This document shows, in pieces, positions 1-44,095 of a stretch of DNA of 46,645 nt; the first letter of the stretch is position 1, and every line of letters starts with the position of its first letter. The notes beneath the pieces are model-generated. The model made no database searches. It was not told where the DNA came from and was given only the letters and a program-made list of their open reading frames with translations. The stretch comes from a virus: positions 1-46,645 of IMG/VR virus record IMGVR_UViG_3300020185_000080; one strand, written 5' to 3'. A program made the translations under genes and the position numbers.

Positions 1-246
1 CTGGCTCGTATCACCAATAATAGGCCGTGGTCTGATCGGTAATCCGCCAGATCCTCCGCCAACAACAGGTAATACTGGCAAACCCACAACATCAATGACA
101 CCATTCTCGTATAAGTCACGAAGCGTGAGCCCCCTATCTAATGCGTCACCGCGCCGACCCAAACGAACTTCAAGCGCCTCTTTGAGTGCTTTGACAGACG
201 GATCGCTGCTATTAGGTATGGCAGGTAACTGAGTTTCTCTAGACAA
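1..246 (-). CDS. Tail-associated protein, N-terminal part (truncated by window edge)
   Basis: An open frame of 82 codons runs off the left end, so the C-terminus is missing. A TTG start at 246-244 is proposed because a GGAG Shine-Dalgarno lies 10 bases upstream inside the preceding gene and no ATG is available. It overlaps the stop of the 541-aa gene by 8 bases. The reading VKALKEALEVRLGRRGDALD resembles the opening of small tail or fibre proteins in podovirus-like genomes, and a Gly/Pro-rich stretch (VVGGGSGGLPIRPRP) follows. Function is otherwise unknown. The start codon is inferred; the coding nature is well supported by the uninterrupted frame and composition. Confidence 0.6.
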   Translation of the reverse strand, partial: MSRETQLPAIPNSSDPSVKALKEALEVRLGRRGDALDRGLTLRDLYENGVIDVVGLPVLPVVGGGSGGLPIRPRPIIGDTSQ

Positions 247-1864
247 CTTTAGCAAGCTCCTTTACCGAAGTGGCTAACTTGACGTAATCAACATGTGCTG
301 TGCCTTCTAACTCGATACGCCATTCTGATGCGGTGTATCCCCCAGGCAATCTAACTAACGTGTCATTTGTGCAAGCTGTTGTAGAACGAAGCACATTGTC
401 CCCGTATATCTTGACGGATACTGTACCTACACACGCCACACTAATCGCACCTAGATTCATAGGTATCGGAGATTCAAACGTCTTTGATTTCCATGTGTAA
501 GTTAGTTCACTGCCTGTAGCCCATTTGTGTAAGACGCTACCATTTGCCACATAAAGTGCATCTTCTTTGGCTGAATAGAATCCGCAAGCTGCGCTTACAT
601 CTGTAAACACCCATGCTTGTTCCGTGCTTTCAGGATCAAACACAAAACCTTGTGTGTTCGTAAACCCAACATACTTGCCTTCGTAGCGATACGCATGAAT
701 CTGTGATGGGTTAAGTGCTTGCCATTGTTCCCTCGTAAAAATAGCTTCAGTCACCACGCTTACAGTATTCCCTGAAACTAGCACCAAACCATCAGGGCTT
801 GCATAAATAGTAGATTCGCCCATATCAACGACAGATCGCTTACTGACACAAGATTGGTATTCATCTAGTTCAAGCACCGACACACTCGCAGGGTCATGCC
901 CCACAGCTAAATGGGGCTTCCCTGTTGTAGCAACCACTAGCCCTTGCGAGTTAGGAGAGATGCCTACAATGTCGTCTTTAAGCGTATAGCGGTAGTTCAG
1001 CGGAAAAGCGTACGGAATGTAAGGCTCAGAGTACACCAATGTTTTACCAGAAAAACCAACAATAGCGCCACTTGGTAACGTAGTTGCACCTAACATCTGA
1101 CCTGAAGGAAAATCAGACGCATCATCATCTGGCGGCCTAACCCAAGTCACTGTAGGTACAACTTCACCTAAACCTGCAGTGGCAATCGTATCTAAATATG
1201 TGGTGGTCCCAATCGGAACGTCTGCAACAAACTGAAAAGCAGTAGCCGCAGTGCCAGAATTACTTCGGTACAAACGCTTAAATGAGCCCGTGCCTAAATT
1301 ATAAGCCCCTGATGGCGCAGTCGCGAAAGTCACAGTTACGTTCTGCCCATCGCGCACATTCACGGAAGTGCTCAAAGGACTAATCGTAGATTCTTCTCCC
1401 CACGCATCGACCCATGTGTATAAGTAAGATCGGTAATCGTCTAAAGAATCTGCAACAATCGTACCTCCAACAGCTAATGTTGGAGCCACTGTCGGAGCAG
1501 GAAGCCCTAGCCGATATGAAGCCACAGGCATAGGGCTAGCGCCAACAGCAATGTCATTTCGTGTAATTCGGGGATAAGCGTATCCTGTGTAGACAACTTT
1601 GTTAGTAACATCAAACGCGTTAGGGACACGCGCAACGTCAACGTCCATACCGAATTCAAACCATGAACCTGTAGTATATTCGTATATGCTTTGTGCCGAT
1701 GTCGTTAATGGGTTAGGTGACACTGCTGTTGTAGTCTTTAGTGGCTTTAGTCGCCCGTCACCCACTTCACAGTTTTTTGCGTACGTCGCAATGTTTGCTT
1801 TCAATGTTTTTGGAGATAGCGCAGTCGACATACCTCCAAAATCTGCAATAATAAAGCCTGGCAT
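239..1864 (-). CDS. Tail tube/nozzle-like structural protein (541 aa)
   Basis: The 541-aa product begins MPGFIIADFGGMSTALSPK and is rich in short beta-strand repeats with Gly, Ser and Thr. There is no enzyme motif, signal peptide or membrane segment. Length, opening and repeated strand pattern fit the beta-propeller stabilisation or nozzle proteins of podovirus tails (the role of P22 gp10 or T7 gp12), but this is inference from general character. Its ATG shares one base with the TAA of the upstream endolysin gene (TAATG), so the two are probably translationally coupled. It may alternatively be a tail-fibre base protein. Confidence 0.55.
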   Translation of the reverse strand: MPGFIIADFGGMSTALSPKTLKANIATYAKNCEVGDGRLKPLKTTTAVSPNPLTTSAQSIYEYTTGSWFEFGMDVDVARVPNAFDVTNKVVYTGYAYPRITRNDIAVGASPMPVASYRLGLPAPTVAPTLAVGGTIVADSLDDYRSYLYTWVDAWGEESTISPLSTSVNVRDGQNVTVTFATAPSGAYNLGTGSFKRLYRSNSGTAATAFQFVADVPIGTTTYLDTIATAGLGEVVPTVTWVRPPDDDASDFPSGQMLGATTLPSGAIVGFSGKTLVYSEPYIPYAFPLNYRYTLKDDIVGISPNSQGLVVATTGKPHLAVGHDPASVSVLELDEYQSCVSKRSVVDMGESTIYASPDGLVLVSGNTVSVVTEAIFTREQWQALNPSQIHAYRYEGKYVGFTNTQGFVFDPESTEQAWVFTDVSAACGFYSAKEDALYVANGSVLHKWATGSELTYTWKSKTFESPIPMNLGAISVACVGTVSVKIYGDNVLRSTTACTNDTLVRLPGGYTASEWRIELEGTAHVDYVKLATSVKELAKVV

Positions 1865-6053: not shown

Positions 6054-6055
6054 TG

Positions 6056-6430: not shown

Positions 6431-6431
6431 G

Positions 6432-7773: not shown

Positions 7774-7776
7774 AAC

Positions 7777-8070: not shown

Positions 8071-8083
8071 GATTTGTTATCCT

Positions 8084-9464: not shown

Positions 9465-9784
9465 TAGCTGATCTCCAAGATGCTCGCAAACACTTCAAGA
9501 TCTCCAGCAACACTAGCAGTCAATCCAAGAATGTCACCCGCTTCCAGGTTAATTGGCTTGTCCATTAATAAAGTAGCGTCTGCGGGTACGGGTACTGTCT
9601 TGCAAATGTGGCGATAGGTTGTGCCACCATCAACTGTAACCTCAACAGTGACATCCGCATCGTTAACCCCATCAATGTTACTGATGTACAGTGCGTGAAT
9701 GACAGACTGTGTAGCTGATGGTGCGGTGTATAACGTAGTCCGTGATGTGCCAATTGCTACACCCGCGTTCTTAAATGTGTTCAT
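9464..9784 (-). CDS. Small beta-rich fibre-region protein (106 aa)
   Basis: The product (MNTFKNAGVAIGTSRTTLYT...) has the pattern LYTAPS..QSVIHALYISN and NLEAGDILGLTASVAGDLEV. Such small beta-sandwich proteins occur near the fibre and neck genes of many marine and Gram-negative phages. No catalytic motif is seen. It is joined to the next gene by a one-base overlap. It is probably a virion component; exact position is unknown. Confidence 0.6.
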   Translation of the reverse strand: MNTFKNAGVAIGTSRTTLYTAPSATQSVIHALYISNIDGVNDADVTVEVTVDGGTTYRHICKTVPVPADATLLMDKPINLEAGDILGLTASVAGDLEVFASILEIS

Positions 9785-9785
9785 G

Positions 9786-10328
9786 TTAGCCTCCCAATGC
9801 GATTGCCATAGCGACAGATGCGCCGATTGGATCGTAAGTAGTATCGTGATTGTGTGAAGCAGCCGCTTTGCCTGCCAAAGCCGTTGTTATGCCCGAAGCA
9901 TAAGACGCATCATCGTTAATGGCTGCCGCCAGTTCATTCAATGTATCTAAAGCGCCCGGTGCGCCACCTATTAAATTAGTAATCTCAGTGTCCACATAGG
10001 ACTCTGTAGTCTTTGAATCAAGGGCTGTTTGTAACCCACTTATCACTGAAATCGCATGGTTCGTTGGATGGGTGTACACAGTGTTAGTATCGGTAAACAG
10101 TGCGCCTGACGGAACATTCGTGAGTACCTGACTGTCGTCTACCTTTCCATCTAAAGCTGTTTGCAATCCAGTAATAACTGAGATGGCATGGTTCGCTGGG
10201 TGTGCGTAAGTTGTATCGGTAAAGACAGCGCCAGAAGGTACATCGGTTAATACTTGACCATCGTCCACCTTACCCGCAAGATCGCCTTGGAGCGCCGTGT
10301 AATCTGCTAGTTCTCTTGCCTTACTCAT
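9786..10328 (-). CDS. Tail fibre stalk with duplicated repeats (180 aa)
   Basis: The N-terminus MSKARELADYTALQGDLAGK matches the attachment segment of the glycine-rich adhesin. Two tandem repeats follow with the pattern (V/D)DxQVLT(N/D)VPSGAxFTDT...HPxNHAIS and then LQTALDxK. After that comes the DTLNELAAAINDDASY helical linker and the metal-binding-like HNHDTTYDPIGA typical of trimeric fibre stalks. The 640-aa fibre has one more copy of the repeat plus linker, so these two genes share a recent ancestor segment. Confidence 0.72.
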   Translation of the reverse strand: MSKARELADYTALQGDLAGKVDDGQVLTDVPSGAVFTDTTYAHPANHAISVITGLQTALDGKVDDSQVLTNVPSGALFTDTNTVYTHPTNHAISVISGLQTALDSKTTESYVDTEITNLIGGAPGALDTLNELAAAINDDASYASGITTALAGKAAASHNHDTTYDPIGASVAMAIALGG

Positions 10329-13886: not shown

Positions 13887-16800
13887 TTAATCACCAGGCC
13901 ACCAATTCTTATATTGTGAGAAAAATGGCGTTACACGCCGTATTGTCTCTAAGGTTGAATCATTGCCCGTAGCACTGTTATAAACACCTTGACCAAAACC
14001 AAACGTAGGTACAAGTGTGCTTAATCCATCATCCCAGCTCTCTGCATTCATAACGCCGTAGCCTAATTCAAATGCACCCAACGTGCCTGACTTAGAGAAC
14101 ACTTCCATTGCGTACTTAGTGTCGCCCATGTTTTCAGTTCTATCGACCCCTTTCCAAAGCTCGCGTAATTCCATAGCAAACATTGTCAGCCCCGCAATCG
14201 CTACACCGCCAACAACAATAGGCACCATTGCATACGCTCCAGCCGACAGCATCCCTTCGCCTTTAGCATCAGAAAATCTACGTTTAGCCTGGCGTAATAA
14301 ACCCATCACCAATATGTCCGTTATAGCGTACAAGAATTGCTTCAAATGAAATGCAATCTTCATGTACGGGTTATTACCCCATGCAGGGTTTTGGAATCGG
14401 CTGGGGCGGAAAGAACTCTCAGTCACAAACTGCATAATCGCCCCATTAACCGCTCGGACAGAATCAGCTTCTACCTTACTCAACCCTTCAGTAAATGCTG
14501 GTTTGCCTAGCGCACGCCATGTTTTAACTTGCCTAGCCGTAACATGGAACGCATTTAGTTCTTCAAGTTGGTTAAAATCTGCTGCTTTCTCAATGTACCT
14601 CATGCCTAATGCAGTCGAAAATGTACGAGATGCCTTTGTTATCGCTTGCTGACCATTCAAAATAAAGTACTTACTTGCCATCTTCTGCGTAATAGTGCCG
14701 TTGTATGCTTCGTTTGCCGCATTACCTTGAATCTGAGCAAGTCCGTTTGACAGTACAGTACCTATGTCCATACCAATGCGACGCGCTTCACGAAGATCAA
14801 GTCCCTTAAACATATCTTTTACGCTTAACAAGTTAGCTGACCTTGCAATCGCCATACCCAACTCAGGAATAGACGCAACCCCAGAGTTAGCTAAGATGTT
14901 CATGTTAACTACGTTAAGTAATGTGTCCTGTGATTTGCGCAACTTACTGTTCATTGAGGTGCCAGTTCGACCCATCACCCCATCAAGTAGTGTCAATGCT
15001 TCATCAACCCCAGCTTGTCCGTGTTTCTTCTCAATACGCCCCATCGCTTCATGCCAACGCTTGTTCGGACTCCAGACTTTACGACCTGAACCTTCATCCC
15101 ATTTACCACCAAAAGGTCGAGCAACTTTAGTCAAGTCATCTTGGATAACATAGCCGCCAAAAGTATGTTCCCAACTAGCACGTTTGGCTGCAGACGCTAT
15201 GTAATGGGACATGATTGCATCAGGCTCCATTACTAAGTATTCCTTTAGATCGGCGTAAGGCACAGCCGATAGTATAGAATCAGCGAATGCGTGAGCACCG
15301 ACAGGCTTGCCAGGGGCAATCGTGCGCTCGTTAAACCCTTGACCATCGAGTAGATAAGCAATGCGGCTATTCATTTCTGCATCACCCATCTGCTTAAAGA
15401 CGTCGTACTGCATCAACATGGCTTTAAACGCTTCGCGCTTACCATCCACTTGATGATGATCAAAAGCTTGCGGGATCATGTCATTGCGAACTTGGTATGT
15501 TGGCATGTAGCCCACCAAATCAGCGTTAATATCGTTAATCATCTTCCGCAAGATCAACGAATGCTCAGTAACATTGTTGTTGTTTAGATCATCAAACGCT
15601 TGGCGTACCGCTTTTTGTTTGCCAATCTTTTTCATAGCAGTGGAGTAAAGCGCTTCGTAACGCTGCGTCAGCTCCATATTAAAGTTTTCGTAAGACTTCT
15701 CACCTGTGCGAGATCCTGTAGTCGATGCTTGCTGAAACAATAGCGCGGCAAGGTTCTTATCTAAGCGTTTAAAGTTACTGCTTACGTTACCTAATATCTT
15801 ATGCCCGAACTTTAAGAATTTATTGTGAGTTATCGGTTCCTTCTTTGTGCGGAACTTAGCCATGTTCAAGACTTCGCCCTTAGTTTCAGGAGCCGCTTGA
15901 GCTGAGACATCCGAGCGCAGGATAACCCCATCCAAATACTGTGAGAATGTCTCATTAAATGGGGAGCGCACTGCCTTCGTTAACACAGCCCAAAGCCCTT
16001 TCAGCTTCTTCACTAGCTCACGGAAATGTGAAGCTACGTTTAACAAGTCACCCCGATTGCGCTTCTCCTTATTTAAACCATCTTCTTCAGTAATGTATGC
16101 CTTATTACGAAGCACCCCTTGGGTCAAAGACAAAGCAACCTGATCGGCATACCATTCTTTAAACGCAGCCGAATCAGACGCTTCACTATAGTTCTGACGA
16201 TCTGCAGCAAACTCAGACAAAATAGAGGCTTTGTTCTTTGCTGAAGCATTAGCCCAAGAGAAGTCATAAACTAAATGCCCTACTTCGTGTGCCACCATTG
16301 AATATGTTTGCGGAGACATATTGGCTGCATTAGTATTAGTGAGACTCGAAGGCATCATAATGATCGCAAACTCGCCCATGTTCACGTAAGCTGCCTGCTT
16401 ATTCTCAATGCTTGCCTTCAATCTTGCTTTAAGGTTCTTAGCTTCTTTAGCAGTCAACACTCCTGACTTTGCCAAATCCTTAATCATAGTAGCTGCGTTA
16501 GACGTATCAGTAATAGCAACATTCTGCTTGATACCTACTGCGTTTAATAAGTTGGCTACTGTAGTCTGTACAGCCGCTAAATTCCCAAACGTCTTAACCC
16601 CTTTAGTAAAGTACCTACGTAACAATGCTTTTCGTGCAGTAGCTACATTCGCCTTACCTTGTGTGGTTGGGCCAAATCGAGTACTTGGCAGACCTTGCCC
16701 TTCTTTAGCCATCAAATTAGAGTCAGTCCATTGTGGGCCATACACGCGATAAGACGTCACCACCTGACCACCCTCAATGTCGATAGCAACAGTGACAGGA

Positions 16801-19800
16801 GCAAAAGAAGGATCATATCCTTCACCCTTCGTTCTAGGGTAAAGCGTCTGAACCCCTGTACGCCGAGCTTCATCTTGGTCGTTGTAAAGTTCAGTCGAAT
16901 CCTCTGATTGAAACTCTCTTACGTATTCATCATTCGCCCAGGCATTACCCATCTGGTTATCAGCAGCCATACTTTCTGGGTTATCCGCGTCTTCATCGAA
17001 AACTTCATCCTTTGCGTCCTGTTCCTCTTGACTGTAAACAGGATCAGGTAAGAACTTCAGTTTCTCAAAGCGACTGTCTGCATCCAACACTAGGCCATCA
17101 CGAACACTTTGTTCGGTATCACCTAGAATGTCGCCCGCTGGCTTGTCCGTCAACTTCGTGCCGGTATCTTTTCCACTAGTGGGAGACTTGTCTTTCTCCC
17201 TGCGCAAATTGCCAGCATGAGCTTCTTTAAGTTGCTTAAACAAATCAATGGTTTCATCAATTAAGTTTTTACCGCCTGCTTGTTCAATAGCCGCGCTAAG
17301 CTCATCCTGAATCTCTTTCTTTTCTTCTTTAGTAGACCCTGCGCCTATCTCAGAATGTTGTTCAACATAATCTGCTAAATAACCTCTTACAATTAACCGC
17401 TCAAGGTTATCACGAAGGAATTTGCGTTCTGAAGTAATTTTCTTAATCGCTTCATTTATCCCTGATAGAAACGCACCATCGGTTATTTTCTTCGCAGAAC
17501 TCTTTGTGTCGTAAGTAGGGTTTTTCTCCTTTAGCCGCTGCGATAAAGAAACGAGTTCTGCGGACTTCTCTTGGATCATCTCGTAAATACTAATGTGCGG
17601 CGACTTTGATTCAGCTTGATTAAAGTTAGCTTTACGCGGTGTGTTGGGTAGGACAGGTATAGGATTAGCGTTCAGACCACCTGTATCTTGCTCTTTACGC
17701 GTGTTCCTATGAACATCGTTCATCAAGTCTTTAACGTACAATGCAGCAATCTCAGATTCCTCGCTGCCTTCTTCCTCAAGCGTTTTAACAAGTGCTTCCA
17801 TCTGATCGCGCTTATCCTCTAAAAGAACCTGCGCATTCTCAAGAAAGTTATACACCGCACTGTCTTTGTTAGCTTCGTTCTGTTGCAATGAGTTCGCCTT
17901 ACGCGCATCCCCAACAGTCTTAAACGTGCCATCGGCCTCTTGGAAAATAACTAAAGAATCTGGAATAACTCTTGGCAATGTATACTGCCTTTGCAGATCG
18001 TATGGCTCGGTACGGCCTAAGTCTGCTTTCAGACGAGGTTGAGAGCCAACCGCCATACGTGCCAGGTTGCCTAGTAATGTTTCAAGCGCCTCTGAAACTG
18101 AACTGACTGTCGATTGATCAGAGTAACGAGCAATCGCAATCGCATCGAGCATAACAGTTTTTGCAGATTGTCCATTAGCCTCAAGCTGCACCTCAAGTAA
18201 ATTTGCCCCATCATTAGCAACCGACCTTGCATAGAATATCTTAGCTTCGTCGCGACCTTTTATACCATTATCACCAAAAATACCATTGTGCATACGCTCT
18301 GACTGAGTGCCTGTCACTTGCCCTGTAACGTCATTAATAATACTAGCCGACTGATGCGCTAACTCGTCGGCCTGCACCAAAGGCGCTAACTTCAATGCAA
18401 TGGCTTGTGTAGAGTCAACGTCCCGTATTGCATACTCTTCAAACAACGCTGCCGTATTCTCGGACTTAGCAATGGCTTCTTTAGTCATGCCATCTACGTT
18501 CTTAGTACCGCCTGTAATCTTCTGTAAATCCGCGTTATCAGGAAACATCCATGAGGACAATGTATCCAATGAATGCGATGATGATTCAAAACGAATGCCT
18601 TTTGATAAACGTAACGTATCAATCATGTGGTTGGGTGTGTACCCAAACTTCTCTTTAAAAATAGCCGCGTCAAACCGAGCGTTGTGCATAACAAGTGTTA
18701 CGTTAGGATCTTTCTGCCAGCCTGCTACAAGTGTCGCTATTTCTTCATCAGTCTGTATGTATTGAGTGGCGTCACCTTCTTTTACCGCTAGTCCTAAGAT
18801 CTCAAATTGCGGATCTGTTATGTAGGCTTCAGTACTAAGATCTGGATTCTTCAGTGAGTAACCCGTCGCAGTATTAAAGAAAGTCTCAAAGTCGACTGTT
18901 ATAATTCGCTTACCTGCTAAGTATTCACTACCGTTTGGTTTTAACGCATTGAACTTAGCGAGGCGCGAAACTGCTGACTCAAATGCAGTAACAAGAGGGG
19001 TATTAATGTCTGTAAATACCTCACGAAAGCGCATGGTCGCCCGATACATAGTATGAAAAAACTGATTTATAGAAGCGCGCTCTTGAGAAACTGTTTCTAT
19101 TACAGGTGACGTTCCTGCGGTATTTGCAGATACAGGCCGCCTGTGTTGTTCTTCAGCTACCGATGCATCGTAATAATTTTTATCATCGCGATTAATAATA
19201 TTGTTTTTAATCAGTAGCTCTAGTGTTCTATTCACATCCATCTCGGTGTGAAGAAATATCTCTCGAATATTTTCTTTAAACGTAGTACCCGTCCGAAGTT
19301 CTGGATTATGCATCTGCATAATACTGTTAACATATCGCTCCATCATGGACGTATTAACCATCATGCTCGGGAAATTAGGATTAACTTTACCCCTTGCATT
19401 AGTCATATCAGACTTCAACATTTCAAATAACTTTTCTGCACTGTGAACTGAGTCTCTAGACATCATATCTAAGGCTGTGAAGACTGCTGTTGCGTTATCA
19501 AGCATAAACCTATCAACATAAGACTCAGCAAATGCTTTACGCCTAAAACCTTTCTGCTTACTTAGCGCGTCTGAAATTAAAGTAAGGTCTATGCGTCCAC
19601 GTAATAACAATTTACCTAACGTGATCTTAGCGGCCCCTGCTGCCTCTTTGTTTGCTGCATCCTCCTGGCGCGTATTAAACACCAAAGAAAGCATATCAAA
19701 AAAGCGCTTATTATCAGGGTGATTTACAGCCTTCCTGAGATTAGGAGCCTTATGAGAGTTAGCCATCTTGATCAGTTTATCTACTCTCGTACTGAATTTT

Positions 19801-22800
19801 TCACCCTTACCCATCACATAATCATTGAGGTTATTAGTCTCGTAGAATCGCTTGAGTTCAGTTAATTGCGCAACAATCTCGTCACGAACCAACTTGGAGT
19901 CCCAGTTCATGCCAATGAGCACTTGTAGTAAGCCATCCATTGAACGATCTGAATCTTTAGGTAACTGCTCTTGCATAAGCAAACGAACAGTATTATGTAG
20001 CGTTTCCCAGTTAACAGCCGCTCTCTGTTTTTGGGATTGTTCTTTAGGCCCAGACTCAGGGCGTTTATTGTTACGGCGATTAACCGCACTACGGACTTTA
20101 CTCGTTGTGGTTTCTTCAACCTTCGCTTGTTGTTTAGCTGGTTTGCTTTCTCGCTCCGAAATGTCTGCTAGTAACTGACGTATGTCATCTTCACGCGTAG
20201 TCTCAATGATCTTACCCGTGTCACGCTTCACCTTATTCAGATAAAACTCATTGGCTAGTTCAGACAACTGATAATCGCTTAACGTACTTAGCCCTTCAGC
20301 AATGGTCTCCGCCATAGATTGCCCTGCTTTAACCTTAACCGCTCCTAATAAGCGTTGACCATACGAACCGCTAGACTCTTTTTTGCCTTTCTTTGTGTCT
20401 GTACCCGCATCAAATAAGAAATCGAGCTTCTCCCAAGACGAGCCTATAAAGCTGCCTTTGGTGTTGTTCATCTTACCAATAAGGGCAGAAGCTACTCGGA
20501 ATGCAGCGCCTTTCTCCCCGCTCTCAATCGGATTCTCAGGCGCAATGGATACGCCCCGTTCTTCGGCCATCTGTGTCAGTTGATCCGTTGATGCCGCTTC
20601 CAAGGCCGCGCGATCAGATTGCGTTTGGCTGTAACTTGCTTTTTGGCCTGCATCTTCCCGCTTGGCTTTATCTGCGCTGGTGATTGCATTAATAATTCGT
20701 TGGCGTGGGAATGCCCCTTTAGTGGTGGGCCGTGAATCAACGCCAGCTTTCTTAGCTTCAGCGACAATCTCTTCTTGTGAAATGTCACCATTAATGGCTT
20801 CTTGTATTAAGTCACCTAAAGGACGCAACTTACCTGCATCATCACGCATCGACTTAGAGCCTTTGCCTTCTGCTGGCTTACCCTTTTTATTCGCAGGGAC
20901 TTCTAATGGTTTTGCTGCAGCCTCATTAGTGTTGACTTGACCGCCATCGGGGTTTAGTCCTTTACGTTCTTCAGCGCGCACACGAATGTCTTCGTTAAAA
21001 AGTTCTTGTCGCTCACTCAGGTATTGCGTAGTCTGAGGGCCGTCTAATGTTGCTATATCTACATCTTTACCATAACGCTCACTCATTGCCGCTTCAACAT
21101 TGGACGCATTAGCTGCGCTTGTCATTTCATAACCAACTGCAACCCCCTCTGCATTGCGTGCAACCACAGACCTTAAATCCTGAGCCTTGGTTGTTGCCAT
21201 AATCTCTTCTTTAGTCTCTGCGTATCCTAATGTGCTTTTAGCATCTTTGTTGCCATCTTGCTCAAACGCTTTACCCTTAGCTTCATTGGAAGAAAACAGT
21301 ACGCCCGATTCATGCTTATACGCTACCACTCCTTCAGGCAAGGTGACTTTATCGGCAGCTTCTGGGTCTGCGGCATAGACTGAATCAAGCCCAGCGTTAG
21401 GATCAGTAATGTATTTAAGCTGGGCTTGTATCTGAACAGGCGCTTCAGGAATTGTGCCGTCCATAGCCCTGCGCGTTTGCACGTTCTCGCCGATAGTCTT
21501 CATCAAACCATACGACCCGCCTGCAGTACCCGAAACAGTACCCATGCCTCCGCCTGCTGCTGCGCCTGCAAAGAAAGACTCGGTTAACTGATTCCAATCA
21601 ACATCGTGTTCAGGCTTAACCATTTTTATAGCCAGCTGATTGGTCAACTCCTGTAACCATTCAGTACTACCTTCCACTCCTGACGAAATTGTTGCCCGTT
21701 TAGCAATATGCTTAGCTAAGTCGACAGGATTTTTTATTGTCCCCATTTCAGGCATAAGCCCTTTATAAATACTCTGGAATCCTCTGAATTCTAAAGCAGT
21801 GTTACTCAGACCCGTAGCAACTGCCAATAAAGGATTATCTACTCCTTCTGCCAATTGTGTATGTCGGGATTCGCCCATCATCTGAGCACCCATAGAGCTA
21901 ACCAAACCTGCTTTACCTGCTGCTCTCCAACCTATTTTTTTAATAAAACTTCGGCCTGTAGCTAGTGCAATAGCCGCAGGGATACCTACCCCAGATGCAA
22001 TAGCCGCAGCCCCAATACCTATATCCGTCGCAATATTTGGAGCGTTTTCTAATGTTTTTTCTATAACGTATCGCCCAATAGATTCTATAGAAGAAGTATC
22101 AACGTCCTCGTAAGAGTCAAACTCAGAAGGGCTTTTTGACGCTTCGATCATATTCCGAATGACGCCTTCTTCCCCCCATTCTTTCATCAAATCAACGCCC
22201 GCCATTTCACCCACTAACTCAGTGAATTGGTATAAGTTCATTTGGGTTTTATCAATGCCTTTATCCACTGCTCTTTGTGCAAAGTTACGGTAATCCCGAA
22301 CATGGGTGGATTGATCAATGGTCACTTCGCCATAGTCGATGGCATTCTTCGGGGGTTGTAGCGTGCCATTTTCAGCGGCATCGACTGACTCCGCAAACGC
22401 TAAATGATTATTGATACTGTTTTTATTGAAGTTAGTGGGCGTGGCGAGTCCTTCACGGAGTAGTTGCTCCATGATGGTATTGCCTTCTTCATCGACGTAA
22501 TTGCCCAGCACCCTGCCGTGATGGTCTTTTTTGCCCGAATCCCTCTCGACGTATTTACCAGAAAGTAATAATTCTCTAGTACGTTGCTGTGCCTCAATAG
22601 ATAAAGGTTCCGCTGACCCTGCATCTTTTCCTGACGTATTAATCTCAGCCGTATCGCCCCCTTCAAAGCGAACACGATGCGTAGCAGAACGGGTAGTATC
22701 GCCGTCATAAACCTCACCAAACGGAGAGTCAGTCGCTAGACCTGTACTACCATTTTCTAGATCTGCCGCTGTCCCTTGTATTTCTAAAAAATCAAGAGAT

Positions 22801-22874
22801 GCTGCAGTTTGATTCTCACGCTCAGTCGCTGCAACGCGGTCTAACCCTTGTAAATACGCAACATATTTAGACAT
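13887..22874 (-). CDS. Giant multi-enzyme virion protein: SNase-like nuclease, DnaQ-like exonuclease, metallopeptidase
   Basis: At 2995 aa this is the largest gene, placed where ejected internal proteins lie. Residues 52-145 form a staphylococcal-nuclease fold (VYDGDT) with R69, E77 and R121 matching the catalytic R35, E43 and R87. Residues 1322-1500 form a DnaQ-like 3'-5' exonuclease with D1328/E1330 (VDFETFF), H1397-D1402 (HNARFD) and D1485 (YAIRD). Residues 2191-2245 hold a zinc metallopeptidase motif, HEVGH 2196-2200, with EWYAD at 2240 as the likely third-ligand region. Hydrophobic stretches occur near 281-306 and 2879-2901, with a glycine-zipper-like stretch near 435-455. The rest is mostly charged helix. 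This matches polyvalent proteins and is probably injected with DNA; its targets are unknown. Confidence 0.85.
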   Translation of the reverse strand: MSKYVAYLQGLDRVAATERENQTAASLDFLEIQGTAADLENGSTGLATDSPFGEVYDGDTTRSATHRVRFEGGDTAEINTSGKDAGSAEPLSIEAQQRTRELLLSGKYVERDSGKKDHHGRVLGNYVDEEGNTIMEQLLREGLATPTNFNKNSINNHLAFAESVDAAENGTLQPPKNAIDYGEVTIDQSTHVRDYRNFAQRAVDKGIDKTQMNLYQFTELVGEMAGVDLMKEWGEEGVIRNMIEASKSPSEFDSYEDVDTSSIESIGRYVIEKTLENAPNIATDIGIGAAAIASGVGIPAAIALATGRSFIKKIGWRAAGKAGLVSSMGAQMMGESRHTQLAEGVDNPLLAVATGLSNTALEFRGFQSIYKGLMPEMGTIKNPVDLAKHIAKRATISSGVEGSTEWLQELTNQLAIKMVKPEHDVDWNQLTESFFAGAAAGGGMGTVSGTAGGSYGLMKTIGENVQTRRAMDGTIPEAPVQIQAQLKYITDPNAGLDSVYAADPEAADKVTLPEGVVAYKHESGVLFSSNEAKGKAFEQDGNKDAKSTLGYAETKEEIMATTKAQDLRSVVARNAEGVAVGYEMTSAANASNVEAAMSERYGKDVDIATLDGPQTTQYLSERQELFNEDIRVRAEERKGLNPDGGQVNTNEAAAKPLEVPANKKGKPAEGKGSKSMRDDAGKLRPLGDLIQEAINGDISQEEIVAEAKKAGVDSRPTTKGAFPRQRIINAITSADKAKREDAGQKASYSQTQSDRAALEAASTDQLTQMAEERGVSIAPENPIESGEKGAAFRVASALIGKMNNTKGSFIGSSWEKLDFLFDAGTDTKKGKKESSGSYGQRLLGAVKVKAGQSMAETIAEGLSTLSDYQLSELANEFYLNKVKRDTGKIIETTREDDIRQLLADISERESKPAKQQAKVEETTTSKVRSAVNRRNNKRPESGPKEQSQKQRAAVNWETLHNTVRLLMQEQLPKDSDRSMDGLLQVLIGMNWDSKLVRDEIVAQLTELKRFYETNNLNDYVMGKGEKFSTRVDKLIKMANSHKAPNLRKAVNHPDNKRFFDMLSLVFNTRQEDAANKEAAGAAKITLGKLLLRGRIDLTLISDALSKQKGFRRKAFAESYVDRFMLDNATAVFTALDMMSRDSVHSAEKLFEMLKSDMTNARGKVNPNFPSMMVNTSMMERYVNSIMQMHNPELRTGTTFKENIREIFLHTEMDVNRTLELLIKNNIINRDDKNYYDASVAEEQHRRPVSANTAGTSPVIETVSQERASINQFFHTMYRATMRFREVFTDINTPLVTAFESAVSRLAKFNALKPNGSEYLAGKRIITVDFETFFNTATGYSLKNPDLSTEAYITDPQFEILGLAVKEGDATQYIQTDEEIATLVAGWQKDPNVTLVMHNARFDAAIFKEKFGYTPNHMIDTLRLSKGIRFESSSHSLDTLSSWMFPDNADLQKITGGTKNVDGMTKEAIAKSENTAALFEEYAIRDVDSTQAIALKLAPLVQADELAHQSASIINDVTGQVTGTQSERMHNGIFGDNGIKGRDEAKIFYARSVANDGANLLEVQLEANGQSAKTVMLDAIAIARYSDQSTVSSVSEALETLLGNLARMAVGSQPRLKADLGRTEPYDLQRQYTLPRVIPDSLVIFQEADGTFKTVGDARKANSLQQNEANKDSAVYNFLENAQVLLEDKRDQMEALVKTLEEEGSEESEIAALYVKDLMNDVHRNTRKEQDTGGLNANPIPVLPNTPRKANFNQAESKSPHISIYEMIQEKSAELVSLSQRLKEKNPTYDTKSSAKKITDGAFLSGINEAIKKITSERKFLRDNLERLIVRGYLADYVEQHSEIGAGSTKEEKKEIQDELSAAIEQAGGKNLIDETIDLFKQLKEAHAGNLRREKDKSPTSGKDTGTKLTDKPAGDILGDTEQSVRDGLVLDADSRFEKLKFLPDPVYSQEEQDAKDEVFDEDADNPESMAADNQMGNAWANDEYVREFQSEDSTELYNDQDEARRTGVQTLYPRTKGEGYDPSFAPVTVAIDIEGGQVVTSYRVYGPQWTDSNLMAKEGQGLPSTRFGPTTQGKANVATARKALLRRYFTKGVKTFGNLAAVQTTVANLLNAVGIKQNVAITDTSNAATMIKDLAKSGVLTAKEAKNLKARLKASIENKQAAYVNMGEFAIIMMPSSLTNTNAANMSPQTYSMVAHEVGHLVYDFSWANASAKNKASILSEFAADRQNYSEASDSAAFKEWYADQVALSLTQGVLRNKAYITEEDGLNKEKRNRGDLLNVASHFRELVKKLKGLWAVLTKAVRSPFNETFSQYLDGVILRSDVSAQAAPETKGEVLNMAKFRTKKEPITHNKFLKFGHKILGNVSSNFKRLDKNLAALLFQQASTTGSRTGEKSYENFNMELTQRYEALYSTAMKKIGKQKAVRQAFDDLNNNNVTEHSLILRKMINDINADLVGYMPTYQVRNDMIPQAFDHHQVDGKREAFKAMLMQYDVFKQMGDAEMNSRIAYLLDGQGFNERTIAPGKPVGAHAFADSILSAVPYADLKEYLVMEPDAIMSHYIASAAKRASWEHTFGGYVIQDDLTKVARPFGGKWDEGSGRKVWSPNKRWHEAMGRIEKKHGQAGVDEALTLLDGVMGRTGTSMNSKLRKSQDTLLNVVNMNILANSGVASIPELGMAIARSANLLSVKDMFKGLDLREARRIGMDIGTVLSNGLAQIQGNAANEAYNGTITQKMASKYFILNGQQAITKASRTFSTALGMRYIEKAADFNQLEELNAFHVTARQVKTWRALGKPAFTEGLSKVEADSVRAVNGAIMQFVTESSFRPSRFQNPAWGNNPYMKIAFHLKQFLYAITDILVMGLLRQAKRRFSDAKGEGMLSAGAYAMVPIVVGGVAIAGLTMFAMELRELWKGVDRTENMGDTKYAMEVFSKSGTLGAFELGYGVMNAESWDDGLSTLVPTFGFGQGVYNSATGNDSTLETIRRVTPFFSQYKNWWPGD

Positions 22875-22884: not shown

Positions 22885-25296
22885 CTATTGATTCAGGTCT
22901 TGCTTCTTTTTAAGGTGTTTATGCGCATCTGCAGTAGCTTGTGCTTTAGTAATATACGGGAACTGCTTCATTAGCAACTTGACCATATCATCAACAGATT
23001 CGTACCCATTCACGCCTCCCCCAGTAACGTAGATACCCGTATCTGGCGCAGCGGCTTTAACAAGTCGACCGAAATCACCAACATGATTAGAACCTGTTGT
23101 CCCACCCATACCCCACACTCCATCAGTGCCTGGTCCACTTTTAGCAACTTCCTGTGCAAGATGCTGGGCTAATATAGAAAGTAAGTGAGTCTGGCCCGCA
23201 CTAATAGGCTGTCCCTTAACTAAATTCAATTTATAGATTTGATCAATCTGAGTTTTATTTACAGTCATCATGTGATTCATGTACTTATCAAACTCATCTC
23301 GTGGCATAAATTGGCCCACTTCTTTCCCGTCAACTACGATCCCTGCAGCACCTAATCCTTTGGTAATTGCTCCACCCATAGCGCCTTCGTTATGAGTTTC
23401 AACGGCGGCTTCATCCGCAGCGGTTGCTGCTCTCGATGCACTAGTTGTCGCCGCGCTATCACCTAGAGGGGTATAAATACTTTTAGATGGATTGTCAGGG
23501 TCAACGCTTACTTGATGCACTACGCCATCAAATGTCACTGTTGAAGTTTTTATCGAAGGAACTTCCACAGGGTTTGCACGCCCTGTTAATTGATAACGCA
23601 CCATGTCCTTATTGGTTATAGTAAAACCTGCCTCTTTAAGAATAAGCATATCCACAGCTCGGCTTGCCAACGTACCAGCGCTAACAGTCGAACCTCCCTT
23701 CACTGTACTTCCAACAACTCGTTCTTGAGCAGCGGCCACTTGTTCAGTAGTAATTTCTGTAGAGGCTAGTTGCGATGTAGCTTCTACCTCAGCCTCTGAA
23801 GCTAATTGTTTTTTACTCTTATCCGTTTTGCCCTCAAGGGTAGCTTCTTCAGTTTTTTGGTCTCTCAGTTTTTGTCGTTCGTCATTAATCTTTATAAGTT
23901 TCTGCTGATCCAAATAGGCTTGTGTTTGCGCTTGTTGGTCTGATGAACCAGGATCAGTATTATCCCAATCTGCCTTAGATGCCACCCCATTATATCCCGC
24001 AGAAATATCTTGACCTAGAGCAACTGTACTGTTCACAGCCTGCCCACCATAACGCTTCAGACCACTCCATATATCTCCAGCTAATCCACCAACAGCTGTA
24101 GATGCTGTATCTGCTACTTCACCAATAGCTTCTCCCGTAGTAAGTGGATCTTCCGCCAACTGATCTATAAAACCATCTACACCTTGCCCTTGGTTACTTC
24201 CATACATTTCACTAACATAGGCTTGAGCCTCTTCGGGAGTCATGTCGAGTTCATCAACTAACGCTTGAGTTACACCCATCATGCTCTTAGGGTAATTATT
24301 AGCTACCAAACTAGGGTTCTTAAAAATATTATAAACCAATCTATTCGCAGCTATTTCTTGCGCATCGGGGTCTCTATTATAAGCACGCCCGCCTGTCTTT
24401 GCCCCTGTGTAAAGAGGACCAGGGCGATTGCTTCCAAATCTAACTGCTGGGTCTACTGCTGGGTCATTAATATCAGCGCTTAGGTTCTCTCCCAAGCCTT
24501 GAGTTAAAGTCGGATCTGTTTGTGTTTGCTGTTGCTGCTGCCCAGACAAAGCAGTAGTAGTTTGTCCTAGTTGTTGAGCATTCAAAGAGTCAGCTTCTTG
24601 GGCTGCCATAGCTTGATTTGTCGCCGAATCAATGACCATTGAAGTGTTAGCTCCATAATCAGCCTGACCTGCACGCTCTATAAAGGCTACAATCTGTTCC
24701 GCTGTAAACGCATCTGCGCCCTCACCACCAAGCATCTGCCCAATGTCCGTCTTCTGCCCATTTGCATCTTCCATCATCGGTACAAATACTTTTGTACTTT
24801 TGCCATCGCGACCCGGCCCTGCAATCTCTTCAAACCCTGCAAATGTAGTCCCTTCAGGTAGAAAGCCTTGACCCTCCAATATATCGGCAATTAAATCCTC
24901 GACTACAGGCATCTGAGCAGGATCATTCAGTGCTTGTTGTGCCCCCTCACGACTTGCTCTAAGTACAAGGTTTTCAGCCTGCTTACCCGTAATCTTCTTT
25001 TTCTTAATGTCTAGGTCAACATCACTAGCTTCTATCGACTGCTCTTGTATCAATAATGCGTTGTCTCTACCTTTCTGACCATCCTCATAAATTCGTTTAT
25101 CCTCTACGACTTTTGCTTTTGCACGCTCAGCCGCATCTTGGTTCAAGCGCAGTTGTTCGTCGGCCCTGATATTGCCTAGTGCTTGCTGCTGAAGCTGATC
25201 TGCGTAGTTATCATCTGCCACTTGATCCCGTTCTGCCTGACGGCGACGATCTTTGAGCCCCATGTACATTGCCCAGACATTATCTAAAGTAGCCAT
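22885..25296 (-). CDS. Internal virion/ejection protein (803 aa)
   Basis: The N-terminal 120 residues are a long charged coiled coil (MYMGLKDRRRQAERDQVADD, AERAKAKVVEDKR). A Gln-rich run (QQQQQTQTD) lies near residue 255, further helices follow, and the C-terminal 150 residues are more compact and include GTDGVWGMGGTTGSNHVGDF. There is no lysozyme or transglycosylase motif. The gene lies 10 bases upstream of the giant protein in the same operon. That order (small internal proteins, a middle-sized one, then the giant) is like T7 gp14-gp15-gp16, so a DNA-ejectosome role is the best inference. Confidence 0.62.
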   Translation of the reverse strand: MATLDNVWAMYMGLKDRRRQAERDQVADDNYADQLQQQALGNIRADEQLRLNQDAAERAKAKVVEDKRIYEDGQKGRDNALLIQEQSIEASDVDLDIKKKKITGKQAENLVLRASREGAQQALNDPAQMPVVEDLIADILEGQGFLPEGTTFAGFEEIAGPGRDGKSTKVFVPMMEDANGQKTDIGQMLGGEGADAFTAEQIVAFIERAGQADYGANTSMVIDSATNQAMAAQEADSLNAQQLGQTTTALSGQQQQQTQTDPTLTQGLGENLSADINDPAVDPAVRFGSNRPGPLYTGAKTGGRAYNRDPDAQEIAANRLVYNIFKNPSLVANNYPKSMMGVTQALVDELDMTPEEAQAYVSEMYGSNQGQGVDGFIDQLAEDPLTTGEAIGEVADTASTAVGGLAGDIWSGLKRYGGQAVNSTVALGQDISAGYNGVASKADWDNTDPGSSDQQAQTQAYLDQQKLIKINDERQKLRDQKTEEATLEGKTDKSKKQLASEAEVEATSQLASTEITTEQVAAAQERVVGSTVKGGSTVSAGTLASRAVDMLILKEAGFTITNKDMVRYQLTGRANPVEVPSIKTSTVTFDGVVHQVSVDPDNPSKSIYTPLGDSAATTSASRAATAADEAAVETHNEGAMGGAITKGLGAAGIVVDGKEVGQFMPRDEFDKYMNHMMTVNKTQIDQIYKLNLVKGQPISAGQTHLLSILAQHLAQEVAKSGPGTDGVWGMGGTTGSNHVGDFGRLVKAAAPDTGIYVTGGGVNGYESVDDMVKLLMKQFPYITKAQATADAHKHLKKKQDLNQ

Positions 25297-25311: not shown

Positions 25312-25812
25312 TTATCCCATTATCATCATAGAAGCTAGGCTAGTCGCCGTGCCTAAATTACTCGCAAATGCGTCAGCACTGCGTTTCTTATTACCTGAGA
25401 TACGAGTTGATTCAAGACCTGCAGCATGGCGAAGCGCATCAGAGCCTGTCTGATTAAGATCGTTGTACATGTTCAGGGAATCACCAAGTACTCGAGTATT
25501 GCGCTCGTCTTGACTCAATATCGCAGAGTTCTTTGCCTGATCCGTAAACTGACGAGTAGTTATATCGCCCAATCGTTTTGATTGTTTCGCTGCCTGACCA
25601 GATAACGATACGCCTGCTCGACTTCGACTCCGATCATTGACGCCTTTTGCCGCCTTAGCCGCCATCTGAGAATTAAAATCAGCACGATCAATCAAGGTGC
25701 GGTCTGTTAAAGCACTCGCAGCGTAATCATCCAGTTGCTGTTGAAAGTTAGCTTTATAGCTTGCTTGATCCGCTTCTTGGCTCTTTCTTAATGCTTCTTC
25801 TGCACTAGCCAT
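25312..25812 (-). CDS. Small internal virion protein (166 aa)
   Basis: The product starts MASAEEALRKSQEADQASYK. The first two thirds are Gln/Ala/Arg-rich helix, and it ends in a hydrophobic Ala/Met tail (LGTATSLASMMIMG). The ATG at 25812 shares a base with the TAA of the upstream gene and is preferred over the ATG at 25818. Context and composition (small, alanine-rich, with a possible membrane-active C-terminus) suggest one of the ejected proteins that open the envelope, but no family is certain. Confidence 0.58.
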   Translation of the reverse strand: MASAEEALRKSQEADQASYKANFQQQLDDYAASALTDRTLIDRADFNSQMAAKAAKGVNDRSRSRAGVSLSGQAAKQSKRLGDITTRQFTDQAKNSAILSQDERNTRVLGDSLNMYNDLNQTGSDALRHAAGLESTRISGNKKRSADAFASNLGTATSLASMMIMG

Positions 25813-26498
25813 TACCAACTCCCTAACTTAGTAAACAAAGATGCACCAGGCATATTATTTCGTTTATCTCTCAATCTTAACGATTTAACGACTCCCGACT
25901 CATCAGGAAGAGACCCGTCATGGTTAAACGGAGAACCTGTGCCACTTAGAGCTTTTCTTGATCTTTGATAACTAGAATCAGCAATTTCAAAGTTATCTTT
26001 TTTCTTCAGTCCGTATGCAGCCGCAATCCCTGCCGCTCCATCCAGCATCGCGTTCTGCCTTGTCATAGACGCATTGGCTTCGGCGGCAGCAACACCAGAA
26101 GCAGCCGCTGCACCAGATTTAAGGCTTGCCACCGCATTGACGTTCTTCTTGTTACCTAGTTCGTTATACCCACTTTTCAGTGCATCCTGACGACCTAAAG
26201 CGACACTACTTGCGTTGTTCGTTGCTTGTGATAACTGCGCCCCATAACCTGTAGAACCAAAACCGCCACTTTGCCCTGACGCAAGTTGCTGACCTGTACG
26301 ATCTGTGCCAGCGGCTTGTGCCACATCAGCCGCAGCCATGCCTCCTAAACGAGAAGCATCGTCACGATTCATTTTCCTTTGGTAATCCGAAAGCAAAGGT
26401 TTTGATTGAGTTCGAGCCCGTGAAGTCTGTTCCTCTCCTAACTTAATCTCGGCTTTTTCCTGCTGAGATTGCTGTTGCTGTGGTGCACTGTTACCCAT
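25812..26498 (-). CDS. Small internal virion protein with glycine/alanine-rich core (228 aa)
   Basis: The N-terminal 60 residues are polar and Gln-rich (MGNSAPQQQQSQQEKAEIKL). The central region (60-160) is rich in Ala, Gly, Ser and Asn (AAADVAQAAGTDRTGQQLAS), and the C-terminus is basic. Proteins of this composition occur between the adaptor and the large ejected proteins in podovirus-like genomes. Hydrophobic Ala/Gly patches (AAAASGVAAAEANA, DGAAGIAAAYGL) could insert into a membrane. It overlaps its neighbours by 1-8 bases. Confidence 0.58.
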   Translation of the reverse strand: MGNSAPQQQQSQQEKAEIKLGEEQTSRARTQSKPLLSDYQRKMNRDDASRLGGMAAADVAQAAGTDRTGQQLASGQSGGFGSTGYGAQLSQATNNASSVALGRQDALKSGYNELGNKKNVNAVASLKSGAAAASGVAAAEANASMTRQNAMLDGAAGIAAAYGLKKKDNFEIADSSYQRSRKALSGTGSPFNHDGSLPDESGVVKSLRLRDKRNNMPGASLFTKLGSW

Positions 26499-26928
26499 GC
26501 TGTAAGTCCTTATAGAAAACGCGGGTTTCCCCGTTAAAGCCTGTTATCTTGCGATACTTCTCCCAGCCTTTTCGATTGCTACTAAACACAATCTGATCAA
26601 AGCCTTTAGCCGCAGCAAACAAGGGTAAAGATTGATAAAGCCTCATAAGCCCACTGCTCTGTTGAGACAGATACGCATAGTCGACATGAAGTACTGCTTT
26701 TTCAGAATAACAATCCGTGTATTCCTGCATGACAATAAAACCAAAAAGATCATCGCCCTCTTCAGAGATAATGTCGTACAGATAGACCTTGCCGTTGTAG
26801 ATTGCACGCATGACATCTTCTGTCATACAGTCACTACCGCCCTTGTCTATGGCGTCAGAAATACCACTTGCGTAATAAGTATGTTTGTCACGAACTCGAT
26901 AAGGGGTGATCGGGTCGAAGTGAAACAC
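26491..26928 (-). CDS. GNAT-fold-like virion-associated protein (145 aa)
   Basis: The start is a GTG at 26928-26926 with a strong GGAGG 7 bases upstream, overlapping the previous stop as TAGTG. The 145-aa protein has the strand-helix order of a small acetyltransferase-like fold: YLYDIISEEGDDLFGFIVMQ as central strands, SSGLMRLYQSLPLFAAAKGF as the helix, then IVFSSNRKGWEKYRKITGF. Similar proteins sit beside internal virion genes in podoviruses (the T7 gp13 position). A clear acetyl-CoA loop (Q/RxxGxG/A) is not present, so enzyme activity is doubtful. Confidence 0.6.
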   Translation of the reverse strand: MFHFDPITPYRVRDKHTYYASGISDAIDKGGSDCMTEDVMRAIYNGKVYLYDIISEEGDDLFGFIVMQEYTDCYSEKAVLHVDYAYLSQQSSGLMRLYQSLPLFAAAKGFDQIVFSSNRKGWEKYRKITGFNGETRVFYKDLQHG

Positions 26929-42157: not shown

Positions 42158-44095
42158 GTGAAAATTGAAGATTACACCTTACTGACCCTAGATTTTGAGA
42201 CCTATTATGGTCGCGGCTATTCATTAGGCCGTTCTGATACGAACACCATCGACTACATCACCGATGACAAGTTCAAAATTCACTGTGTCGGTGTCAAAGT
42301 CGATGACGAGGACGTAGAAATATTCCGTGAGGACGAGATGGCGGAGTTCGAGCAGTTCTTGCTGGATCTCACTCGTTCAGGCGAGCCTATCGCGCTCGTA
42401 TGCCACAACACAGCCTTCGATGGCATCATTTTGCATCACCACTTCAACTGGCACCCTGATTATTACGTCGATACGATGTCTATGAGCAAGGGCATGTTCG
42501 TCGGTGCGTCTGCATCGCTCAAAGCCTTGTCCAAACGCCTATGGTCTGCGGATAGTGGCAAGCGTAAAGGCGATGAGCTGGCATTATCCAAAGATATTTA
42601 CGATTTACCTCGCGAATTGATGGACATTATCGCCAATTATTGTCTTCAAGACGTCAAATTAACGTACGACGCCTTCCGAGTGATGTACGAGCACTTCCCA
42701 GAAGACGAAATGTATCTAATTCATGCCCATATTCGTATGTTTTGTGAACCTTGGCTCCGGGTAGACACCAAAATCACCCAGGAGGAAATTGACGCCCAGG
42801 TGACTGAAAAACGTGCCGCCTATAAGAAAGCGGGCCTCCCACTGACTGTATTATCGTCCGATCAGAAGTTCGGTATCTATCTAGAGACCCGTGGGTACGA
42901 ATTACCCGCCAAAGAGAACGCTAAAGGCAAGTGGATTGCTGCGCTCAGTCAAAAAGATTGGGAATTCCTTAAATTCATGGCCGCTCACCCCGAGCTGGCT
43001 GATGTATTTGCTGCGCGTAAGTACGCTAAGTCAAATATCCAAGAATCACGCGCTCGTCGGTTCTTATCCACTGCTAAAAAGTTCAATGGCCTGATGCCTG
43101 TACCCCTGAAGTACTACGGCGCTCACACAGGCCGTTCTTCAGGCGGAGAAGCACTCAATTTACAGAATTTACCGCGTATTAACCCAAACGACGCGACTTC
43201 AGGCCGCTTGCGTCGCTCTTTGTGTGCACCCGACGGCTATTCCGTCATCGTGTCCGACTTATCCAACATCGAAGCGCGTGTACTGGCTTGGCTCTCTGGC
43301 AACACTGAGCTTATGGAGCTTTACCTTACAGGTGGTGACCCGTATCTACTCATGGCCTCAAAGATTTATGACTTTGATTACAACGATGCCCTCACACGCA
43401 AGTCTGAGAAATCATTCAAGGCTATGCGTAACGTAGGCAAAGTAGCTGTCCTCGGCCTCGGTTTTGGCATGGGCGTTAATAAGTTCTGGGTCACAATGAA
43501 CACTGGCCCAATGGGTATGGACCCTATCCCAACCACAATCGACGAAGCCAAGCACATTGTCGGTCTTTATCGTGAGACTAACTTCCCTGTGGTCGACTAC
43601 TGGGACAGATGCGATGAGATCATCAACCAGATGCTGTCGGGCAATACAGCGCTCACCTTTGGCCCCTTAGAAATCCACAACAACAACATCATCTTGCCTA
43701 ATAACATGGCCCTTCAGTACCCCAATCTGTGCATGAAAGAAGATATTAAAGGTCACAGCTTCCAGTACTCACCCGAACTTAACCAGTATGGCGAGCTCAA
43801 GACGCGTAAGTACCTATGGGGTGGCACACTGACTGAGAACATTGTGCAGGCGCTCGCTCGCATCATCATCACCGAGCAGGCCATCGCCATCGAGAAGCAC
43901 CTCGACGACACCTACGGCCTCGATCAAGCACGCCTTGTTCACATGGTGCATGACGAACTCATTGTTGTCGGCCCTGAGAAATACGCCGAAGCTATTTATA
44001 AAAGCATGATAGCCATCATGTCCACCCCGCCCTCATGGGCACTCGACCTGCCCTTAACCTCCGAAGGTGGCTGGGCAAATAACTACATAAAATAA
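42158..44095 (+). CDS. polA: Family A DNA polymerase with 3'-5' exonuclease (645 aa)
   Basis: A GTG start follows AGAGG by 7 bases. The DnaQ-like exonuclease has D12/E14 (LDFETYY), H83-D88 (HNTAFD) and D165 (YCLQD). The polymerase has motif A with D367 and E372 (SDLSNIEARVLAWLSG), motif B with R424, K428, L432 and G437 (the O helix) and motif C H598-D599-E600 (VHDELIV). L432 aligns with E. coli Pol I F762, a position that affects fidelity and dideoxynucleotide sensitivity; Y766 is Phe (F436). There is no 5'-nuclease or RNA polymerase domain. It is the main replicase and the exonuclease is related to that in the 2995-aa virion protein. Confidence 0.95.
   Translation: MKIEDYTLLTLDFETYYGRGYSLGRSDTNTIDYITDDKFKIHCVGVKVDDEDVEIFREDEMAEFEQFLLDLTRSGEPIALVCHNTAFDGIILHHHFNWHPDYYVDTMSMSKGMFVGASASLKALSKRLWSADSGKRKGDELALSKDIYDLPRELMDIIANYCLQDVKLTYDAFRVMYEHFPEDEMYLIHAHIRMFCEPWLRVDTKITQEEIDAQVTEKRAAYKKAGLPLTVLSSDQKFGIYLETRGYELPAKENAKGKWIAALSQKDWEFLKFMAAHPELADVFAARKYAKSNIQESRARRFLSTAKKFNGLMPVPLKYYGAHTGRSSGGEALNLQNLPRINPNDATSGRLRRSLCAPDGYSVIVSDLSNIEARVLAWLSGNTELMELYLTGGDPYLLMASKIYDFDYNDALTRKSEKSFKAMRNVGKVAVLGLGFGMGVNKFWVTMNTGPMGMDPIPTTIDEAKHIVGLYRETNFPVVDYWDRCDEIINQMLSGNTALTFGPLEIHNNNIILPNNMALQYPNLCMKEDIKGHSFQYSPELNQYGELKTRKYLWGGTLTENIVQALARIIITEQAIAIEKHLDDTYGLDQARLVHMVHDELIVVGPEKYAEAIYKSMIAIMSTPPSWALDLPLTSEGGWANNYIK

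Follow-up and report, generated by a model that had tools for sequence, protein, structure and literature searches.

Several described systems come close to the protein considered here, which is encoded in the viral record IMGVR_UViG_3300020185_000080, analysed in full over positions 1 to 46,645 (46,645 nucleotides; hereafter, the window). The ejection protein gp16 of phage T7 has two membrane regions, a transglycosylase at its N-terminus that works in the periplasm, and a part that binds DNA in the cytoplasm (PMC8954989). In the giant gp50 of phage N4, an N-terminus associated with the membrane is followed by a central enzyme, the HExxH domain C1 (residues 2124-2375) and a large helical C2 (PMC12633501); gp50 carries HELVH at residue 2228, and the N4 ejection genes gp52-gp51-gp50 encode 150, 644 and 3500 amino acids. 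Polyvalent proteins (J Bacteriol 2017, PMC5512222) unite a zincin-like peptidase with a number of catalytic domains of unrelated kinds and are found among virion genes.

By open reading frame (ORF) calling and translation, positions 13887-22874 of the window form one uninterrupted reading frame of 2995 codons on the minus strand, whose product is likely to be a T7 gp16-type ejection protein of a short-tailed bacterial virus, grown into a carrier of enzymes. A preliminary description of this DNA had proposed a polyvalent ejection protein encoded by a 2995-amino-acid gene; the gene was recovered as described, on a strand that the description had not given, and the proposal largely stood with regard to the nuclease folds, the peptidase signature, the gene position and a scaffold on which domains are swapped. 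Sequence comparisons and structural models support the predicted domains and the order in which they stand, the position of the gene, the domain swapping and the kinship of the exonuclease with the exonucleases of phage family-A DNA polymerases (PolA). The features of the gene, from the N-terminus of its product onwards, are as follows:

13887..22874, minus strand: likely giant gp16-type ejection protein (ORF and translation; 2995 amino acids, 329.6 kDa)
22380..22727, minus strand: SNase domain, residues about 50-165 (Pfam PF00565; model match; D57, D59, T60, R69, E77, R121)
21483..22286, minus strand: module M2, residues 197-464, including the first hydrophobic segment, 287-305 (own iterated hidden Markov model, HMM; hydropathy)
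18345..18923, minus strand: DEDDy 3'-5' exonuclease, residues 1318-1510 (Pfam PF01612; likeness to the phage's own PolA; D1328, E1330, D1402, Y1481, D1485)
17880..18212, minus strand: unnamed conserved block, residues about 1555-1665 (hhalign E 1.6e-5, reversed control 0.52)
16005..16607, minus strand: zincin-like metallopeptidase region, residues about 2090-2290 (model matches; Pfam M78 in the relative L016)
16275..16289, minus strand: HEVGH, residues 2196-2200 (translation)
16155..16157, minus strand: E2240 in EWYADQ, likely third zinc ligand (invariant in 5/5)
14415..15842, minus strand: C-terminal core, residues about 2345-2820, of gp16-type likeness (structural ranks 1-3 of 976 chains)
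14172..14351, minus strand: second hydrophobic region, residues 2842-2901 (hydropathy)

Domains and scaffold of the giant protein

The exonuclease was matched by the Pfam family DNA_pol_A_exo1 (PF01612) at residues 1379-1500, with an E value of 4.7e-10 and 40 bits against a cut-off of 23.6. It had previously been taken for a DnaQ-type exonuclease on the basis of D1328, E1330, D1402 and D1485; these residues are present as named, but the domain is rather of the DEDDy type of polymerase-A proofreading exonucleases than a generic DnaQ, with Y1481 standing four residues before D1485. The complete catalytic set (D-x-E, D and Y-x3-D) is invariant in all seven sequences aligned, of which giant proteins contributed three and polymerases four. 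Between the window and the relative L001, the ratio of non-synonymous to synonymous substitution rates (dN/dS) in this domain was 0.15 at a dS of 0.55, which indicates that the exonuclease is under purifying selection. No DNA_pol_A match was found by Pfam in the giant protein, so the exonuclease is not fused to a polymerase domain.

At the N-terminal end, Pfam SNase (PF00565) matched residues 67-156 (E 4.4e-5; 24.3 bits, cut-off 21). When the AlphaFold model of residues 1-480 was submitted to a second-look structural aligner, all 50 of the listed best matches were staphylococcal nuclease structures, headed by 5kee (Z 10.0, 104 residues aligned over model positions 50..173, root-mean-square deviation (rmsd) 3.2). 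D57, D59, T60, R69, E77 and R121 are identical in all 11 rows of the SNase alignment, several of which are near copies of each other. The intact SNase-like active site claimed earlier, consisting of R69, E77 and R121, was found at those very positions, and Pfam and the modelled fold agree: the domain has the predicted fold and the catalytic residues of an SNase. Relatives scored above the Pfam cut-off in their own right in the Aeromonas phage phiA008 (E 7.9e-7), L019 (4.9e-5) and L016 (1.4e-4), and below it in L002 (1e-3) and L020 (0.018), while the Pfam scan gave no SNase match in L004.

With regard to the scaffold, hydrophobic 19-mers occur only at residues 287-305, 2842-2860 and 2883-2901, and this hydropathy profile defines two putative membrane regions, one N-proximal (287-305) and one near the C-terminus (2842-2901). 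Residues 2087-2995 were modelled from 39 sequences with a mean predicted local distance difference test score (pLDDT) of 71.3 and a predicted template modelling score (pTM) of 0.62. Re-alignment of this model to 976 PDB chains placed the PhiM1 pre-infection ejectosome 8vb2_A first (Z 8.7, 261 aligned, rmsd 6.1), the T7 core protein 9jyy_I second (Z 8.0, 237 aligned, rmsd 5.3, with model positions 276..725 on its residues 515..1272) and the E1004 core protein 9vvp_L third (Z 7.7, 263 aligned, rmsd 6.0), with Z values that, like those of the zincins described below, lie under the caution level of the aligner for helical folds. Among the BFVD structures, 46 matches to the C-terminal model were obtained at E <= 0.001, including the KPP25 structural protein (1.2e-17), the internal core proteins of Ab05 and LKA1, and several proteins labelled 'large polyvalent protein associated domain'. 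Searches of the PDB sequences with the giant protein by phmmer (E <= 0.1) and with the profile A2 by hmmsearch (E <= 1) returned nothing. Taken from sequence and model, the scaffold looks like that of a T7 gp16-type ejection protein.

Zincins ranked next after the core proteins, on positions 3-220 of the same model. The best of them was 8sw0, a puromycin-sensitive aminopeptidase (Z 6.8, 84 aligned, rmsd 2.8), and further matches were to lethal factor (Z up to 5.5) and to aminopeptidase N (Z 5.1 over a wider range), the two aminopeptidases being of the M1 family. Of the three enzymatic segments, SNase and exonuclease exceeded their Pfam cut-offs, whereas the HEVGH region of the giant protein had no Pfam match. 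The corresponding site in L016 was nevertheless recognized as Peptidase_M78 above the cut-off (E 9.7e-6), and H2196, E2197, H2200 and E2240 are invariant in five of five aligned relatives. The metallopeptidase signature reported beforehand is thus corroborated by the M78 match, by E2240 and by the zincin matches of the model, and HEVGH together with E2240 forms a predicted zincin-like peptidase.

The gene is the last and largest of an ejection series encoding 168, 803 and 2995 amino acids, in the same order as T7 gp14-gp15-gp16, in agreement with the ejection-protein position originally assigned to it, and it sits amid late virion genes identified by Pfam and PHROG (portal, capsid, structural genes and tail fibre). 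Apart from this place in the series, its product shares with T7 gp16 and the core proteins of PhiM1 and E1004 an enzyme in the N-terminal slot and two putative membrane regions, and its modelled helical C-terminal core resembles theirs. It differs from gp16 in its length (2995 versus 1318 amino acids), in carrying an SNase instead of the transglycosylase and in some 1900 extra residues with the exonuclease and the peptidase. With N4 gp50 it has in common the giant size, the gene order and an HExxH domain that precedes an extensive helical C-terminal part. The virion structural protein of KPP25, phiR18 and CRPAP1904 has a homologous C-terminal part and a similar gene order; however, the CRPAP1904 protein is 2107 amino acids long, and neither SNase nor exonuclease was found in it with Pfam and our own profiles. 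Whereas polyvalent proteins and gp16-type proteins are already known, the combination of SNase and polymerase exonuclease appears to be new as far as found: the main text of PMC5512222, figures and supplements aside, mentions neither SNase, staphylococcal nuclease nor DnaQ, and full-text searches of the open-licence literature yielded, among the papers listed, no SNase or polymerase exonuclease described in an ejection protein.

Exonuclease origin and domain exchange in the family

The same phage encodes a DNA polymerase with an exonuclease domain of its own:

42158..44095, plus strand: family-A DNA polymerase of the same phage (Pfam DNA_pol_A, E 5.2e-24)

The N-terminus of this PolA (42176-42550) was the best match of the giant-protein exonuclease elsewhere in the record (36% identity, E 5.1e-15), and identities to the exonuclease domains of phage family-A polymerases ranged from 27 to 36%. 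Matches at E <= 0.01 were found in 11 of 50,697 phage records, mostly in annotated DNA polymerase genes and a few times in hypothetical ones. From IMG/VR, 575 relatives were retrieved, of which the best 80 were kept; 75 of these ORFs contain a polymerase domain, the other five run off the contig end, and no giant protein was present among the 80. In a tree of 89 rows, which several long branches make unsafe and from which the donor lineage cannot be named, the three giant-protein exonucleases formed one clade (100/100) among PolA exonucleases on a long stem (5.4), and the phage's own PolA grouped with that of CRPAP1904 (93/92). A recent self-duplication of the PolA exonuclease was not supported, given that the giant-protein clade stands apart on its long stem and the phage's PolA lies beside CRPAP1904; a generic DnaQ from another source was rejected, given that the matches in phage records and IMG/VR lie mostly in polymerase genes. 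Judging from these alignments, the domain has its kin among the exonucleases of phage family-A DNA polymerases, that of the same phage among them; it shares their DEDDy residues and differs from them in having no polymerase domain attached and in its virion-type protein context.

The conserved block at residues about 1555-1665, directly downstream of the exonuclease, is kept in the exonuclease-free relatives L004, L005 and L016, which have the SNase and in which the exonuclease was not found (hhalign E 0.84, reversed control 0.74). The same two motifs are separated by 285 residues in the window, 90 in L004 and 41 in L016, and a clean upstream border of the insert was detected only weakly (hhalign E 0.07 versus 0.32 for the reversed control). 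DNA identity between the window and L001 was 99.9% over codons 1-600 and 98.9% over codons 2071-2995 but 76-85% over codons 1151-2070, so that this central stretch looks like a cassette passed on by recombination.

For the wider family, querying IMG/VR with the C-terminal portion gave 250 relatives, the best 80 of which were kept, and a C-terminus profile run over the fetched loci detected 98 ORFs, or 90 after contained copies were dropped, 81 of them not cut at the 5' end. M2 was present in 81 of the 90 ORFs according to a profile seeded and iterated on this same set, and all nine misses are cut at the 5' end; the SNase was detected with our own profiles in 10 of the 90, seven of these being seeds. 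The N-terminal slot before M2 held a phage lysozyme in three of the ten relatives tested (L042, L077 and L095), with no Pfam match in the other seven. The middle slot of L046 (1292-11068, 3259 amino acids) carries a 2OG-Fe(II) oxygenase, DUF7831 and NADAR side by side, that of L083 and L070 cpYpsA, and that of L098 a weaker NADAR match; L084 and L065 gave no match there. A scan of 27 representatives revealed the same kinds of swapped domains. With differing enzymes in these slots, the family would be a carrier with two enzyme places, one on either side of the first membrane region. Unrelated enzymes exchanged on one scaffold, together with a C-terminal core resembling T7-type core proteins, bear out the polyvalent concept put forward at the outset. 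The KPP25 homologue is annotated as a virion structural protein, and in bacterial genome contigs 227 stretches fitted a pattern, none of them a relative.

An HExxH motif is present somewhere in 71 of the 81 family ORFs with an intact 5' end, most commonly as HExGH followed about 50 residues on by EW[YF]ADQ. One relative of 3778 amino acids (L020, 9359-20692) has three HExxH and two EW[YF]AD[QR] motifs and, from these motifs, probably two peptidase domains.

Proposed mode of action and alternative explanations

From this architecture we infer how the protein is packaged and oriented, that its domains are active and on which substrates, and what the peptidase does. The giant chain would be packed in the head beside the 168- and 803-amino-acid ejection proteins and expelled with the genome. 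In its layout, the SNase in the N-terminal slot is followed by the membrane module M2, and the long loop between the membrane regions would comprise exonuclease, peptidase and core. Assuming T7 topology, the SNase would be located at the periplasmic end of the tunnel and cut DNA outside it, while exonuclease, peptidase and core would reach the cytoplasm, where the exonuclease might trim or degrade 3' ends near the DNA entry site. SNases require calcium, and polymerase-type exonucleases require magnesium or manganese; because calcium is available in the periplasm, a calcium-type SNase would suit that compartment, and its metal requirement would likewise suit the exonuclease to the cytoplasm. 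As the SNase precedes the first membrane region, where T7 gp16 has its periplasmic peptidoglycan hydrolase, chromosomal DNA is not the target that first suggests itself for the SNase. The peptidase might release cargo or cleave host proteins, as has been suggested for polyvalent proteins (PMC5512222). That the whole works as a two-compartment nuclease delivery device, with a periplasmic calcium-type nuclease in the lysozyme slot, a cytoplasmic proofreading exonuclease and a peptidase releasing or regulating cargo, is a tentative idea to which we give somewhat less than even chances.

Several results weigh against an enzyme-carrying gp16-type protein. The exonuclease was detected in only three of the 90 family ORFs (own profiles; all three are seeds, and nine of the 90 lack their 5' end), and it is therefore dispensable for ejection. 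The model of residues 1-480, built from 22 sequences, has a mean pLDDT of 55.7, and SNase position 74 is D, N or G across relatives. Foldseek alone, run against the PDB at E <= 0.001, found no match for this model and nothing for that of residues 2087-2995, for which the Z values mentioned above are low. Profile comparison, with T7 gp16 entered as a single sequence, detected no similarity to either gp16 or N4 gp50 above reversed controls.

This last result bears equally on a descent from, or a function like that of, the N4 virion RNA polymerase (vRNAP), a packaged cytoplasmic enzyme in which the exonuclease would have replaced the RNA polymerase and the C-terminal part would exert control. The shared order of membrane N-terminus, central enzyme, HExxH and helical C-terminus (PMC12633501) and the same size order of the ejection genes speak for such a carrier. 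Nevertheless, Pfam shows no RNA polymerase domain, no sequence match to gp50 was obtained, and the best structural matches are of gp16 type, in a list of structures from which N4 C2 is absent; we consider this origin unlikely, and an N4-type vRNAP label for the protein was discarded for the first two of these reasons. Still more improbable is that the nuclease domains have lost their activity and persist as structural or DNA-binding remnants. The replacement of SNase D74 by N or G in some relatives would fit, but the six catalytic SNase residues in 11 of 11 rows, the DEDDy residues in seven of seven and the low dN/dS of the exonuclease argue otherwise.

If the nucleases are active, they might serve to prepare or protect the incoming phage genome, by 3'-end trimming for circularization or removal of blocked ends, rather than to attack other DNA. 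An exonuclease of the polymerase proofreading kind would be apt for this task, and a gp16-like topology would put it where the DNA enters; its rarity in the family and the damage that a tethered nuclease could also inflict on phage DNA make this explanation rather doubtful. The domains could instead act as a counter-defence or inter-phage weapon, degrading nucleic acids used as signals, the DNA of rival phages or proteins of host defence, which appears about as possible as the two-compartment device and short of probable. NADAR, cpYpsA and 2OG-Fe(II) oxygenase domains serve in phage-host conflict, and relatives have them at comparable places. A conflict role is also backed in general terms by the polyvalent-protein concept (PMC5512222), although the sequence itself names no target.

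The preferred reading, a gp16-type ejection protein enlarged into an enzyme carrier, would join two concepts that are usually kept apart, polyvalent proteins and gp16-type ejection proteins. Enzymes would be exchanged at one site ahead of the first membrane region (SNase or lysozyme) and at another located between the two regions (exonuclease, SLOG, NADAR, oxygenase), which gives a rule that could predict the compartment in which an injected phage enzyme works. It also points to DNA polymerases as a source from which domains can be drawn as cargo of the virion.

Gene neighbourhood

The two genes ahead of the giant gene complete the ejection series and were assigned by order and size:

22885..25296, minus strand: 803-amino-acid neighbour in the gp15 position
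25312..25818, minus strand: 168-amino-acid neighbour in the gp14 position

Homologues of the former were found in L001, L002, L003, L004, L005 and L015, and those of the latter at many related loci. Ahead of the ejection genes, at the place of T7 gene 13, lies a conserved gene for 145 amino acids (26491-26928, minus strand) that likewise has homologues at many related loci and was without a match in the PHROG search. Distant from the ejection cluster, a protein of 541 amino acids (239-1864, minus strand) matches phrog_511, 'internal virion protein', with an E value of 3e-138. Following the giant gene, a row of small adjacent genes on the minus strand (5669-10328), alike at their starts, probably represents tail-fibre or receptor-binding modules.

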